Below the pieces are notes generated by a model. That model was not told where the DNA came from, did not search any database, and was given only the letters and a program-made list of their open reading frames with translations. From a virus, in the IMG/VR virus record IMGVR_UViG_3300044612_002410, positions 1 to 25,828 of that record: 25,828 nucleotides of DNA; one strand, given 5' to 3'. Position numbers and translations under genes: made by a program. Shown here piece after piece: positions 2,568-25,582 of the stretch. Within the stretch, counting starts at the first letter, position 1. Each line of letters begins with the position of its first letter.

Positions 2568-3625
2568 CGGATCACCTCGCATAGCACAGTCTGTTGAGAT
2601 GCAATGCCGGCTGCTGCGGCGGCCCTGCGAGCGTCACGGGCCTTGATGTAGGCCACAGCCTGCGCGGCGGCTTCATCCTGGTTCAAACGGCGGTTTATGG
2701 CCGGTGATGCTTTCGCCAGTCCGTTTGCTTTGGTTCCAAACTGCTCCCAATTTTTGAACTTCAGCGACTGCCAGCGCTTGCCATCGATTCCGGCGGTGAT
2801 GCCATCCTGCAGTTGACCGCGCAGGATTTCGACGCCCCCTCGCGGGTCTTCCAGGATTTTGCGGGCTTCCCCCATCATGCGATCCCATGCCGCAGGGGTC
2901 ATCTGGCCTGATCGTGCTGGCCAGAATGCCAACAGGTCAGCGGTTGCGGGGGCTAGGTCTTTCGGCACGTCATCAGCTGACGGCGTGAACTTGGGTTTGC
3001 GGGGCTTCACGGGTTTTGGTTTGGGCGGTGGTAGTGGCTCGGCAACGATACCGCCTTCCTGGGCGATGGGAACTTCAGTTATGGGTGCCATGGGTGCCAT
3101 GGGTTCAGCCGGGATCACTTCCTGGTGGTCCTCCCGTGCGCTCCCCCCGCTGGGGGGTAAGGGGGGTTCTAACTCTTGTTCAATTCCTCTTGTTAGATCC
3201 CTCTTGTTAGGGTACCCCTTTTGGGGGAGGGGTCCCCTACCCCTTTTGGGGGAGGGGTGGGGTGCCCCTTTTGGGGTATCCCCCTTTTGGGGGAGGGGTC
3301 CCCCTTTTGGGGGAGGGGTCTGCTCGTATCTCACATGAAAAAGCGCCGTCTGCCCCACTCGGTCAACACGACTGATCCAGCCGTTTTGCACAAGCCACCG
3401 CAGGCTTGATCGAACGTGGTCCTCCTTCATGCGGCACTCCATGGCCAACCGAGCGATTGATGGGAACGCCTGGTCGTTCTGGCCGGCGTAGTGCCACAGC
3501 CAGGAGTAAACAAAGAGGGTGCCCTTGCGATCTGCGCAGGCTTCGAGCAATGCGATCGGTACCTGGGCAAAGCGCGGCCGCGTTATCCGCGCTGCCGGCT
3601 CAGCAGCGCCTGAGGCTTGTGTCAT
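2564..3625 (-). CDS. Lambda O-like helix-turn-helix replication initiation protein
   Basis: A 353-residue protein. Residues 15-100 form a winged-helix domain typical of phage O-like proteins: 'FAQVPIALLEAC' leads, followed by 'AFPSIARLAMECRMKEDHVRSSL' and 'LVQNGWI'. Residues about 104-140 are a Pro/Lys/Gly-rich linker encoded by five copies of a short DNA repeat, so origin iterons may lie inside the gene as in lambda. A Pro-rich linker follows (about 155-215). The C-terminus (about 215-353, including 'AFWPARSGQMTPAAWDRM') probably contacts the helicase or its loader. It is the first gene of the leftward operon; the ATG at 3625 is the natural start. The HTH call is firm, the O-like role is inferred from domain order and internal repeats. 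Confidence 0.75.
   Translation of the reverse strand: MTQASGAAEPAARITRPRFAQVPIALLEACADRKGTLFVYSWLWHYAGQNDQAFPSIARLAMECRMKEDHVRSSLRWLVQNGWISRVDRVGQTALFHVRYEQTPPPKGGPLPQKGDTPKGAPHPSPKRGRGPLPQKGYPNKRDLTRGIEQELEPPLPPSGGSAREDHQEVIPAEPMAPMAPITEVPIAQEGGIVAEPLPPPKPKPVKPRKPKFTPSADDVPKDLAPATADLLAFWPARSGQMTPAAWDRMMGEARKILEDPRGGVEILRGQLQDGITAGIDGKRWQSLKFKNWEQFGTKANGLAKASPAINRRLNQDEAAAQAVAYIKARDARRAAAAAGIASQQTVLCEVIR
3173..3208. repeat. Three 8-bp CTCTTGTT repeats at 14-bp spacing, next to the iterons
   Basis: CTCTTGTT occurs at 3173-3180, 3187-3194 and 3201-3208, each copy exactly 14 bp from the previous one. The stretch is distinctly richer in A+T than its surroundings and directly borders the G/C-rich iterons. 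This looks like an unwinding element with short direct repeats beside initiator binding sites. Spacing of 14 is not a multiple of 3, so the pattern is not driven by protein repeats. Confidence 0.5.
3215..3319. repeat. Five direct repeats (iterons) inside the O-like gene, candidate replication origin
   Basis: The 19-mer CCCCTTTTGGGGGAGGGGT is found exactly at 3215-3233, 3240-3258, 3281-3299 and 3301-3319, with a 13-nt partial copy at 3265-3277. The start-to-start spacings are 25, 25, 16 and 20 bp. As 25, 16 and 20 are not multiples of three, successive copies are read in different frames, so selection acts on the DNA rather than the protein. In lambda, the O-binding iterons also lie within the O gene, next to an A+T-rich segment, and the same layout is seen here (repeats at 3173-3208). 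Each copy can also form a CCCC-TTTT-GGGG hairpin. Confidence 0.6.
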
Positions 3626-9369: not shown

Positions 9370-9960
9370 ATGACCACCGCCAAGGCCAAGCCTGCTACCG
9401 CCACCAACAAGCCCAGCAACCTGTACGCCCTGACCTGCGACGCCTACCACCTGGAAGTCGCCATCACCGAAGCCGCCGAAGGGCTGGTCAGCGATGATTC
9501 CCAGGTGGTCGCCGCTGCCGAAGCCGAACTGGAGGCGCTGATAGCCGCTGGCGAAGGCGCCAAAGATGCCTTGCTGGCTAAAGCCGATTCCTGGTGCTGG
9601 GTGATCGACCGTCTGCGGGATCAGGCCGCTTCCCGCAAGGCCCACGCCGCCCGCTTGGTGGCACTGGCCCAGGCCGATGAGCGCAAGGCCGACACGATGC
9701 TGGACAAGCTGACCGATCGGCTCCTGTTTTTGGATCCTGCCGCCACCAAGTTTGATCTGCCCAGCCACCAACTGAAGAGCACCAATGTTTCCACCGTCGA
9801 GATTGACGACGACCTGCTGCCCGAGGATCTGCCCGCCAAGTACCAGCGCACCAATACCACCACGCAGATTGACCGGGCAGCCCTCAAGACTGCCCTGAAG
9901 GGGGGCGCCGAAGTTAAGGGGGCCAGCCTTCTGGAGTACCGCTCCTGGCGCCTGGGTTGA
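9370..9960 (+). CDS. Siphovirus Gp157-like protein
   Basis: A 196-residue protein matching the Sipho_Gp157 family. It has an N-terminal helical region with many Ala/Glu residues, 'ADSWCWVIDRLRDQAASRKAHAARL' (about 76-100), 'DKLTDRLLFL', a beta segment 'STVEIDDDLLPEDLPAKY', and 'DRAALKTALKGGAEVKGASLLEYRSWRLG' at the C-terminus. The family was first named from Streptococcus thermophilus phages and linked to phage resistance there; its biochemical role is not clear. In many phages it neighbours the annealing protein and SSB. It begins ATGACCACC with ACCACCACC immediately upstream. Confidence 0.85.
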   Translation: MTTAKAKPATATNKPSNLYALTCDAYHLEVAITEAAEGLVSDDSQVVAAAEAELEALIAAGEGAKDALLAKADSWCWVIDRLRDQAASRKAHAARLVALAQADERKADTMLDKLTDRLLFLDPAATKFDLPSHQLKSTNVSTVEIDDDLLPEDLPAKYQRTNTTTQIDRAALKTALKGGAEVKGASLLEYRSWRLG

Positions 9961-9988: not shown

Positions 9989-10369
9989 ATGCTCACCTGC
10001 CCCCACTGCGGCATCGCAATCCGCGATCAACCGCCCACCAGTCCCGACGACCAACCGCTAGACAGCGAATCCGCCCGCCAGTTGCAGAGCATTGAGGCCG
10101 AATTGGCGCGGGTGAGGGCTGCGATACAACCGCAGCCTGCCCCGGTGCCAATCGAGGATCTAAAGCTATCAACGCGGGCCTACGGCGCACTGAGGCGCAA
10201 AGGGATCCACACCCTGGCCACGCTGCTCACCTACAGCAACTTCGACCTGCTGGACATTCGCAACTTCGGCCCCAACTCGCTAGGCGAAGTGCAGTTGGCC
10301 TTGCATCTGCGAGGCTTGAAGTTGCGGAAAGAGCGACTGCTGCCACGGACTGGACGGGCTCGCAGTTGA
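9989..10369 (+). CDS. Small protein with RNA polymerase alpha C-terminal-like domain (alpha-CTD protein 1)
   Basis: A 126-residue protein. Residues 3-8 hold one CPHC zinc-type pair, residues 28-46 a short helix ('ESARQLQSIEAELARVRAAI'), then a Pro-rich hinge. Residues 54-113 ('PIEDLKLSTRAYGALRRKG', 'LLDIRNFGPNSLGEVQLAL', 'LRGLKL') align without gaps to bacterial alpha-CTD. The Arg matching E. coli R265 is kept (R63), as are the Gly, Ser and Glu of the 'nLGkKSLtEi' loop, but K298 and N268 are replaced by Asn and Gly. R265 contacts UP-element DNA, so DNA binding is possible. No alpha N-terminal assembly domain is present. The next gene encodes a longer relative. It could replace, block or redirect alpha-CTD at promoters; the role is inferred. 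Confidence 0.8.
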   Translation: MLTCPHCGIAIRDQPPTSPDDQPLDSESARQLQSIEAELARVRAAIQPQPAPVPIEDLKLSTRAYGALRRKGIHTLATLLTYSNFDLLDIRNFGPNSLGEVQLALHLRGLKLRKERLLPRTGRARS

Positions 10370-10400
10370 TTACTTAACCAGATAGCCACCACCGATTGCC

Positions 10401-10889
10401 ATGTTCCCTTGCCCCAACCCCAACTGCAAAGGCTTTGAACGGCGTGTATTGGAGTCTCGCTACGAGCCCAGTCGCGCTGCTATCCGCCGCCGCTGCATCT
10501 GCAAAACTTGCAGATTTACCTTTACCACGGAGGAGAAAGTTCGGATTGCCAAGAAAGAGCAACGGCCAATTACGGGCGCATCAGATCAGCCGTTGGTGCC
10601 CATCACACTGGAAGCCCGACTGAATGGCATCGAAACTGAGCTGGCAGCAGTCCGGCTGGAAATATCCCAGGCACCACCAGCCACTGTGCCTATCCAAGAG
10701 CTTGAACTTGGCGCGTACGCTTACGGCTCGCTAAGGCGGCAAGGGATCACCACCGTTGACGACCTGGTCAAACTCTCAGGCGCGGACCTGTTGGGCCTGC
10801 GCAACTTTGGCCATCAATCGTTGAACGACGTGCGTGTGGCCTTGGCGTTGCGGGGACTGGCCCTGCGCCGGGAGCGGGCTAGCCCATGA
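10401..10889 (+). CDS. NrdR-like zinc ribbon fused to alpha-CTD-like domain (alpha-CTD protein 2)
   Basis: A 162-residue protein. Residues 1-46 resemble the NrdR zinc ribbon: 'CPNPNC', 'RRVLESR', 'AIRRRCICKTC' and 'FTFTTEE', giving a four-Cys site (C4, C9, C34, C37). The NrdR ATP-cone is absent. After a helix ('LEARLNGIETELAAVRLEI', 70-88) and a Pro-rich hinge, residues 96-155 are an alpha-CTD-like domain ('VPIQELELGAYAYGSLRRQG', 'LLGLRNFGHQSLNDVRVAL', 'LRGLAL'). The residue matching R265 is Tyr106, so contact with UP-element DNA by the usual mode is unlikely. The helix, hinge and CTD are clearly homologous to the preceding gene, so the pair arose by duplication. A zinc-ribbon DNA-binding head with a polymerase-like tail suggests a promoter regulator. 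Confidence 0.8.
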   Translation: MFPCPNPNCKGFERRVLESRYEPSRAAIRRRCICKTCRFTFTTEEKVRIAKKEQRPITGASDQPLVPITLEARLNGIETELAAVRLEISQAPPATVPIQELELGAYAYGSLRRQGITTVDDLVKLSGADLLGLRNFGHQSLNDVRVALALRGLALRRERASP

Positions 10890-10890
10890 T

Positions 10891-10920
10891 CGTTCATTGG
10901 TAGTCTGAGGCTGCCGGGTC
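10891..10920 (+). repeat. 30-bp direct repeat, copy 1
   Basis: This copy matches 11161-11190 at 27 of 30 positions. Each copy contains a GGTAG...CTGCC hairpin with a 7-base loop; the stem is the same in both copies and the loop differs at two positions. Copy 1 ends 21 nt before the start at 10942. The pair brackets the small membrane protein gene 10942-11148. Confidence 0.7.
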
Positions 10921-11160: not shown

Positions 11161-11190
11161 CGTTCATTGGTAGCCTGATGCTGCCGAGTC
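11161..11190 (+). repeat. 30-bp direct repeat, copy 2
   Basis: The second copy of the repeat at 10891-10920, 270 bp away. It ends 29 nt before the start at 11220, so both copies stand at a similar distance upstream of a gene. It may be a duplicated regulatory hairpin or a recombination boundary. Confidence 0.7.
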
Positions 11191-24169: not shown

Positions 24170-24494
24170 AAACGCCATGATCACGCCAACGATCCGAGTT
24201 GCAAAAGGGCCATGGAGCCCAAATATGCAAGTCTTGATCTCACATAACCAGCCAGGCAATGGTGGGATCTTTGTGGCCGAACCGCTTACCTTTAGGCCGC
24301 TTGAGTCTTACCAGATCCCCGAGCCACAGCTTGAACTGAACAACTCAGAAGCCCAATCACTGATGGATCAGTTATGGCAATGCGGCATTCGGCCAACTGA
24401 GGGGACGGGCTCCGCTGGCGCCATGGCGGCTACCCAGGCCCACCTAGCCGACCTTCGCCGGCTGATCTTTGAGGACGAACGGCTGAAGCCATGA
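24144..24494 (+). CDS. Conserved small phage protein
   Basis: A 116-residue protein whose C-terminal half, 'AQSLMDQLWQCGIRPTEGTG', followed by 'GAMAATQAHLADLRRLIF', matches a motif I know from many phage proteins ('aqaLmD.LW..GlRPtegtGSaG.laAt..HL.DMr.lv'). The N-terminal part is a variable beta region. The role is unknown. ATG at 24144 or 24177 could be used. The gene is enclosed by a 22-bp direct repeat (24107-24128 and 24491-24512). Confidence 0.65.
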   Translation: MITLPQTPENAMITPTIRVAKGPWSPNMQVLISHNQPGNGGIFVAEPLTFRPLESYQIPEPQLELNNSEAQSLMDQLWQCGIRPTEGTGSAGAMAATQAHLADLRRLIFEDERLKP

Positions 24495-25582
24495 CCACCA
24501 TCCCCAACCCGCAACCGCAACCCACCGATGGCAACCCTGAAGCTCCCACCAGCTCCCTTGTCCCAACTGGTCGGCAAGCCGGTGGCGGGGACGTGGCGCC
24601 TTCGCCAGTCGTCGCAGGGGAGCCACCTGGAGTTGTTCCGGTTCGGGGGGAGCTGGACACCACCATCGCCGGATGTGAGGATCCACCTGACCCCCGCCCA
24701 CGTCGTGCTACTCGATCGCGGCGAGCTGTTCGTGCAGGAGAACCCCTTGAGCAGCCAGTCAAGCCCGGCAGCCCGCCACGTACCGAGCTGTCAGAGCGAC
24801 TGATCGTCGAAAACCAAGGGCTTGCCCGCAAAGCTGCCAACAAATGGTCGAGGCTGTGCGGTCGGCCCTATGACGACTTCATCGGCCCCGCGTTGGAGGG
24901 GCTGGTGAACGGCTGCCGTCGTTACGATCCCGAGCGCATCAACCCTGGTACCGGTCGCCCGTATGCCATCTCTACCTGCGTCTGTCAATACATCGAGGGG
25001 CAAATCAAGCATCACATTAGGGATCATGGCTATGACGTAAAGATGCCGTCAAAGTGGCGTGAGCACTACCCTAAGGTGCGCCGGCTGCTGGCCGAAGGCT
25101 TGAGCCTGGCCCAGATAGTGGAGGCCATTCCCGCCTTCACCGAGGCTGAGATCACCGAAATGATGGGTGCCATGATCGGCACTGTTGAGTTAGTTGATGA
25201 GATCACCTTGCTCGGCGATCACCAGCCCGTGGTCACTGATGAGAGCATCGCAACGGCGTTGTTTCGCCTTACCGAACGGGCATTCAACAACCTCCGGCCC
25301 GCTGATCGTGGCCTGTTGGAGCGATGGTCCGCCGATCCGTTCAAGCGACCCTACCCTTATGGGTCGATGACTCAATTCCACAACCGACTGAAGATCCAAC
25401 TGCGCGGCAAGACCCTACAGCAGTTTCGCCAGGGGATGCTCGGCCTTGACGTGGCAACCGCACCACCAGCGCCTAAGGCCCGCAGCCCGCGCCAGCCCCG
25501 GCCCGCCGTTGCTCCAGTGGTTCAGCCGTCGCTGTTCGGCCGCAACCAGCGCAAGCCACATCCTAGGGCAGTAAAGCTATAG
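24491..25582 (+). CDS. Sigma-70-like factor (region 2)
   Basis: A 363-residue protein. Residues about 98-190 resemble sigma region 2: 'SERLIVENQGLARKAANKWS', 'DDFIGPALEGLVNGCRRYDP', 'PYAISTCVCQYIEGQIKHHI' and 'VKMPSKWRE', which follow the order of regions 2.1-2.4. Residues 196-230 ('AEGLSLAQIVEAIPAFTEAE') look like a helical region 3 or 4 unit, and 250-320 another helical part. The tail is Pro/Arg-rich. Residues 1-95 are Pro-rich and overlap a second open frame with better codon bias, so the true N-terminus is uncertain. Such factors can switch host RNA polymerase to late promoters. It precedes the portal gene. Confidence 0.75.
   Translation: MTTIPNPQPQPTDGNPEAPTSSLVPTGRQAGGGDVAPSPVVAGEPPGVVPVRGELDTTIAGCEDPPDPRPRRATRSRRAVRAGEPLEQPVKPGSPPRTELSERLIVENQGLARKAANKWSRLCGRPYDDFIGPALEGLVNGCRRYDPERINPGTGRPYAISTCVCQYIEGQIKHHIRDHGYDVKMPSKWREHYPKVRRLLAEGLSLAQIVEAIPAFTEAEITEMMGAMIGTVELVDEITLLGDHQPVVTDESIATALFRLTERAFNNLRPADRGLLERWSADPFKRPYPYGSMTQFHNRLKIQLRGKTLQQFRQGMLGLDVATAPPAPKARSPRQPRPAVAPVVQPSLFGRNQRKPHPRAVKL
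24528..24803 (+). CDS. Out-of-frame gene overlapping the sigma-like N-terminus
   Basis: A 91-residue ORF in a different frame, within the region coding for residues 12-104 of the sigma-like protein. Its sequence looks like a real folded protein ('PLSQLVGKPVAGTWRLRQSS', 'HLELFRFGGSWTPPSPDVRI', 'LTPAHVVLLDRGELFVQENP'). Its codon third positions are mostly G or C, whereas the sigma frame here uses many T and A third positions and encodes low-complexity Pro/Arg. So this frame may be the main coding frame in the overlap. No family recognised. The stop at 24803 lies just inside sigma region 2. Confidence 0.5.
   Translation: MATLKLPPAPLSQLVGKPVAGTWRLRQSSQGSHLELFRFGGSWTPPSPDVRIHLTPAHVVLLDRGELFVQENPLSSQSSPAARHVPSCQSD

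Follow-up and report, generated by a model that had tools for sequence, protein, structure and literature searches.

The C-terminal domain of the RNA polymerase alpha subunit (alpha-CTD) is a mobile arm by which the bacterial enzyme holds on to promoters. It contacts DNA by its residue R265 (PMC3828302, PMC2988021), and the alpha subunit is a known target of bacteriophages. Phage T4 modifies Arg265 of alpha by ADP-ribosylation, which is performed by Alt and ModA (PMC2988021), and the alpha subunit is also targeted by Rac of phage phiKMV (PMC7552054). The phage described here differs from both: T4 and phiKMV modify or cleave the alpha subunit of the host, whereas this phage supplies copies of one of its domains. 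The second relevant system is the repressor NrdR, which consists of a zinc ribbon (PF22811) and an ATP-cone. NrdR ribbons dimerise via their third strand and contact DNA with R12, R26-R29 and R37 (backbone) as well as with D15 and R17 (bases) (PMC9110341, PMC12176259).

Beside these systems, phage-borne alpha-CTDs are already known as annotations. Protein c00050 of Bacillus phage Goe8 is annotated as 'RNA polymerase subunit alpha', and fold matches were obtained to proteins of Mycobacterium phage Mithril and Rhodococcus phage Finch ('RNA polymerase alpha subunit C-terminal domain-containing protein') and to several proteins of uncultured Caudovirales (111-135 aa, 'RNA polymerase, alpha subunit, C-terminal'). 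The domain was confirmed with Pfam in Goe8, Zenteno07, Atraxi, Ruegeria phage V16 and three more viral contigs, in which the partner sequences differ; many of the listed 'phage' records (OR84..., MT83...), which are likely bacterial DNA, are left out of this tally. Since such proteins are present in the databases, the general idea is not new as an annotation, and the view of the initial annotation that no phage system of this kind had been described has to be narrowed: no functional study of a phage alpha-CTD protein was found in the open-access literature. A separate combination of a cysteine-containing head and an alpha-CTD was seen in a phage contig with terminase-like and portal-like genes (L191, positions 2438-2782), which encodes a 115-aa protein with a CECC head and an alpha-CTD of 66.5 bits.

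The window, i.e. the whole stretch of 25,828 bases that was analysed, is an IMG/VR virus record to which none of 50,697 phage records is closely similar. Judging from its terminase, which shares 50-55% identity with the enzymes of the Synechococcus and Prochlorococcus phages KBS-S-2A, S-H1 and MED4-184 and is thus closest to cyanosiphoviruses, the record is most likely that of a cyanophage; cyanobacteria therefore appear to be the hosts of this virus. A scan of these three isolated cyanosiphoviruses revealed an alpha-CTD match in none of them. Searches for anti-phage defence families gave no matches.

Table 1. Positions of the alpha-CTD genes, their parts and associated features in the window.
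Feature	Position	Strand	Basis
Conserved non-coding element, possible promoter or operator; begins TAAGCCGTTGCGG, GGTAT about 22 bases in, ends GGGCAA	9313..9353	+	Alignment, n = 9 sequences
Siphovirus Gp157-like gene, directly upstream of the pair, 28 bp gap	9370..9960	+	PF05565, 63.8 bits
P0001, first alpha-CTD protein, 126 aa (CxxC head, helix, Pro-rich hinge, alpha-CTD)	9989..10369	+	ORF, Pfam
P0001, CPHC motif (C4, C7), single zinc-knuckle-like half site	9998..10009	+	Invariant, n = 7 sequences
P0001, predicted helix 26-46, possible dimerisation helix	10064..10126	+	AlphaFold2
P0001, alpha-CTD, residues 53-106	10145..10306	+	Profile match
P0002, second alpha-CTD protein, 162 aa (NrdR-type zinc ribbon, linker, helix, Pro-rich hinge, alpha-CTD)	10401..10889	+	ORF, Pfam, AlphaFold2
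P0002, NrdR-type zinc ribbon, profile match to residues 7-45; Cys4, Cys9, Cys34, Cys37, plus Cys32	10419..10535	+	PF22811, three predicted strands
P0002, predicted helix 70-89	10608..10667	+	AlphaFold2
P0002, alpha-CTD, residues 94-149	10680..10847	+	Profile match, Foldseek
Sigma-factor-like protein (SigF/SigB-type region 2), possible functional partner	24491..25582	+	PHROG, NCBIfam

The two ORFs lie head to tail, 31 bp apart (Table 1). As the initial annotation had proposed from the sequence, both contain an alpha-CTD that aligns without gaps to its bacterial counterpart, here that of E. coli across 59 residues (about 36% identity). The profile search which it had suggested gave significant matches to Pfam RNA_pol_A_CTD (PF03118) for the first (56.4 bits, E 2e-15; 57.3 bits from the DNA) and the second protein (54.1 bits, E 1e-14; 55.8 bits from the DNA), both well above the gathering score of 23.8 bits. 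No better match to an unrelated helix-hairpin-helix family was seen, and the general helix-hairpin-helix model HHH_5 was listed for neither protein in the Pfam scan. When the profile of the whole family was compared to solved structures, only NrdR and RNA polymerase alpha chains were matched (best 60, E up to 0.01). A match by chance or to a generic helix-hairpin-helix was rejected in view of the Pfam scores and of these structures.

Structure prediction with AlphaFold2 likewise gave the helix pattern of an alpha-CTD in both proteins (CTD pLDDT 91-96 in P0001, with a mean of 79.7 for the whole model, and about 91 in P0002). The low pTM values of the models (0.42 and 0.53) are to be expected, because the domains sit on flexible links. 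With Foldseek, the model of the second protein matched the solved alpha-CTDs 1z3e_B, 1lb2_E and 9dvt_A with an rmsd of 0.9-2.0 A, the extremes being 1z3e_B from the complex with Spx (0.9 A) and the Synechococcus alpha-CTD of 9dvt (2.0 A, 37% identity). RpoA models were matched only at positions of about 225 and above, with scores far under the cut-offs (e.g. TIGR02027, 51 versus 227.8 bits); the alpha N-terminal domain is therefore absent from both proteins, as had been noted before, which distinguishes them from RpoA. In Goe8 c00050, too, the scan did not detect an alpha N-terminal domain. Like the pair, the stand-alone 95-aa family PRK07758/NF005841 is small and alpha-CTD-like, and it was matched with 29.6 bits against a cut-off of 115 bits.

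The phage CTDs share fold and profile with cyanobacterial RpoA, to which they are about 45-55% identical. They are closer to it than to E. coli RpoA, which fits a capture from a cyanobacterial rpoA, judged from a domain of only about 55 residues. The equivalents of N294, G296 and S299 are kept in both proteins, whereas K298 is replaced in all copies. A scan of genome contigs with P0002 revealed no cellular relative of the whole protein, and a scan with an alignment of P0002 and its relative L028 (see below) had mainly NrdR proteins among the matches listed, so that a cellular fusion is conceivable. Nearly all of the 386 cyanobacterial genomes contain a single CTD, and the extra weak matches that were inspected belong to unrelated architectures. 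Two other loci were noticed during the genome searches: in a genome from the search of the cyanobacterial phylum, one open frame of 1711 aa contains three high-scoring alpha-CTDs (89-93 bits) (L172, G265:C1:2242190-2242918), and in genome G148 two adjoining proteins of 256 and 255 aa have alpha-CTD-like matches in an architecture unrelated to the phage pair (L183, 6535-8652).

The origin of the tandem by duplication, which had already been suggested, is well supported, because the two proteins share 51% identity across 111 residues of P0001, comprising helix, hinge and CTD (E 6.5e-25). Both genes are maintained as proteins under purifying selection, since dN/dS of the whole genes, calculated for all sequence pairs, was 0.29 for the first (n = 7 sequences) and 0.22 for the second gene; the respective values for the CTDs were 0.23 and 0.13.

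The residue at the position of E. coli R265 separates the two copies. It is Arg63 in P0001 (10175-10177) and Arg in all seven first copies, whereas it is Tyr106 in P0002 (10716-10718) and Tyr in all five second copies. Beside R265, the positions of N268 and K298 are among those that touch DNA. In the window they are occupied by Gly66 and Asn96 in the first and by Gly109 and Gln139 in the second protein. Five of the seven first copies have Asn at the 268 position, the exceptions being the window and contig L003 with Gly, and all second copies have Gly. The proposed division of work, in which the first copy may bind DNA, thus depends on Arg63 and is not borne out at the other two positions in the window. 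With both equivalents lost, binding of UP elements by the first copy of the window is uncertain and may be weak; a role as DNA binder is plausible for the family and weaker for this particular sequence. The second CTD has lost the main DNA contact, yet is better conserved, which fits a role in protein contacts.

At 10175-10205, the first copies of the window and of L003 read RAYGALRRKGI, and the other first copies RANNALKRKGV or RANNALKRVGV. The former resembles the segment YAYGSLRRQGI of the second copy (10716-10748), and the tandem genes may therefore have undergone gene conversion.

The heads of the two proteins, which the initial annotation had described simply as containing cysteines, are of different kinds. 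The first consists of a single CxxC and was not recognised by the NrdR ribbon profile (PF22811) in the Pfam scan. The second is an NrdR-type zinc ribbon that had been missed before; its match is marginal (27.5 bits, cut-off 27.2), and the orthologue in L012 lies just below (26.6 bits). The model of P0002 comprises a three-stranded ribbon, a linker of low confidence, the helix and the CTD. In a hand alignment with E. coli NrdR (E. coli numbering), P0002 keeps R12, R17, R26, R27, R28 and the dimer residue E42 of NrdR and is without R29 and R37 of its DNA face. Glu replaces D15, as it does in both cyanobacterial NrdRs compared, and the segment 'RVLESR' of the cyanobacterial type is retained. P0002 therefore shares with NrdR the ribbon, most DNA-contact arginines and the FTT-E dimerisation strand. 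It differs by a CX4C in place of the first CXXC and by a helix, a hinge and an alpha-CTD instead of the ATP-cone, which the Pfam scan detected neither in P0002 nor in L028. The ribbon was also not detected in Goe8 and Zenteno07. It is the best clue to a head that may bind DNA and dimerise. Small NrdR-type zinc-ribbon proteins were additionally seen in about 25 viral contigs (L036-L060); in those whose sequence was inspected, over about 100-120 aa counted from the start Met, neither an alpha-CTD nor an ATP-cone was recognised by eye.

A more distant contig (L028, IMGVR_UViG_3300031857_001492) carries, at the same position behind a Gp157-like gene, a gene for a single protein of 129 aa. In this protein a complete NrdR ribbon (PF22811, 43.4 bits) is directly followed by an alpha-CTD (53.4 bits) with Arg at the 265 and Asn at the 268 position, and it is the sole alpha-CTD of that record. 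Because one ribbon-CTD gene is found in the same place, the tandem pair seems to have arisen from the fusion by duplication, and the simplest account would be that the fusion came first and was followed by tandem duplication and division. Among the matches listed in the genome search, neither the fusion nor its duplicated, divergent form was found elsewhere.

All eight contigs of close relatives carry the first gene, and six of them also the second. The two exceptions are G007 (66.9 kb) and G008 (35.4 kb), whose records contain no second gene at any place and continue with other genes behind the first; these records are possibly fragments, yet extend well beyond the site of the pair. Since two relatives carry the first gene only and L028 a single fused gene, the tandem pair is not obligatory.

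The neighbourhood of the alpha-CTD genes consists of genes for replication and recombination (Gp157, SSB, Rad52, RusA and a replication initiator), and genes of nucleotide metabolism (thymidylate kinase and dCTP deaminase) are also present in the phage. The conserved element in front of the Gp157-like and alpha-CTD genes is a unique exact match in the window. It is best preserved in contigs which share the upstream gene; L013 and L005, whose upstream sequence differs, retain part of it (TAAGCCGTTGC, GGTAT). Its interpretation as a repeated phage promoter was rejected, as no second good copy occurs in the window. Two repeats were observed: a 30-nt repeat, CGTTCATTGGTAGYCTGAKGCTGCCGRGTC, occurs in two copies of 90% identity, right behind the second gene (10891-10920) and 270 bp further on (11161-11190), and a short G-rich repeat (GGGTACCCCTTTTGGGGGAGGGGTC-like) occurs in five copies at 3210-3320, inside the likely replication initiator gene of the minus strand.

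The protein encoded at 24491, initially described as sigma-like, is indeed a sigma-family relative according to PHROG (sigma, 8e-18) and NCBIfam (SigF, 9e-16), though Pfam reports nothing. BLASTP did not detect homology between this protein and the sigma factor of KBS-S-2A. The gene is present in five relative contigs, i.e. in each that is long enough to reach its place; the four that lack it are either short or do not extend to the expected place, the distance being taken from the window.

These observations lead us to a tentative reading, which we regard as quite possible: both genes may encode dimeric phage transcription adaptors, whose tethered alpha-CTDs would attach to promoters, activators or sigma of the host. 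An ancestral phage gene would have joined an NrdR-type zinc ribbon to an alpha-CTD of the cyanobacterial type and would then have been duplicated. The second copy would have retained the ribbon but given up, in its CTD, the contacts to DNA of the R265 type, and the first would have lost most of the ribbon and retained Arg265. Each protein may self-associate, either by pairing of ribbons as in NrdR or by the helix in front of the hinge, and would present its alpha-CTDs on flexible proline-rich tethers, like the alpha dimer in the polymerase. The CTD of the first copy could make contact with promoter DNA rich in A/T, with a host activator or with region 4 of sigma; in the second, the ribbon would bind DNA and the CTD make protein contacts. 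As a result, the host polymerase may be redirected to phage promoters, or the host alpha-CTDs may be outcompeted, alongside the phage sigma-like factor. This reading is supported by the profile and structure matches to alpha and NrdR, the similarity of the CTDs to cyanobacterial RpoA, the DNA-contact and dimer residues of NrdR that P0002 keeps, the purifying selection, the co-occurrence with the sigma-like gene and the precedent of T4 (PMC2988021). It is weakened by the neighbourhood, in which the pair lies among replication and recombination genes and not next to known transcription factors, by the missing second gene in two relatives, by the loss of N268 and K298 in the first copy of the window, and by the second copy, which lacks R29 and R37 and has only a marginal ribbon match. 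A more specific version, in which a ribbon-guided and a ribbon-less CTD protein form detachable dimeric alpha arms that, with the SigF-like factor, give promoter contacts in trans without replacing alpha, one paralogue contacting DNA and the other protein, is doubtful.

The same neighbourhood would suit a conceivable, if somewhat doubtful, explanation, according to which the alpha-CTD is a mere helix-hairpin-helix DNA-binding module of an accessory protein of replication or recombination and the polymerase is uninvolved. In other phages, too, the domain is fused to unrelated partners in proteins of 115-433 aa, and relatives in Microbacterium phages are annotated just as 'DNA binding protein'. 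HHH_5, which was weakly listed for Zenteno07 and L191, was however not listed for the pair; every solved structure that the family profile retrieved (best 60) is RNA polymerase alpha or NrdR, and the more strongly conserved of the two CTDs is the one without the DNA-contact Arg.

If the proteins instead acted as decoys, which bind host activators or UP elements in the polymerase's stead and shut host promoters down, the missing alpha N-terminal domain would be accounted for, since without it they cannot enter the polymerase as alpha does. The CTDs resemble those of cyanobacteria, and T4 disables the same alpha surface by ADP-ribosylation (PMC2988021). This is nevertheless unlikely, as a ribbon with most of its DNA-contact arginines suggests a DNA-targeted role and the loss of N268 and K298 would weaken a competition for UP elements. 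Still less probable is that the ribbon protein is a nucleotide-blind mimic of NrdR, which displaces the repressor at the NrdR boxes of the host ribonucleotide reductase or, via the alpha-CTD, activates there and thereby supplies dNTPs. The ribbon without an ATP-cone, the preserved DNA-contact arginines with 'RVLESR', and the thymidylate kinase and dCTP deaminase genes of the phage would agree with this. However, NrdR boxes in the window were no better than chance (the best with 5 mismatches in 16 positions, typical of shuffled sequences; phage DNA alone considered), and the ribbon has nearly disappeared from the first protein and is matched just marginally in the second.

Phages which modify or cleave alpha are known, but no study of phages with free copies of its C-terminal arm was found. 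In the fusion of an NrdR ribbon to an alpha-CTD, nature offers a parallel to the designs used for bacterial two-hybrid assays, in which a DNA-binding domain is combined with a polymerase-contacting one. The single gene of L028 and the duplicated form provide a ready comparison for the action of an alpha-CTD in trans. That several phages of unrelated kinds carry the domain, joined to differing partners, points to its repeated capture and perhaps to a shared use, and these small genes are probably tools which steer the transcription of the host.
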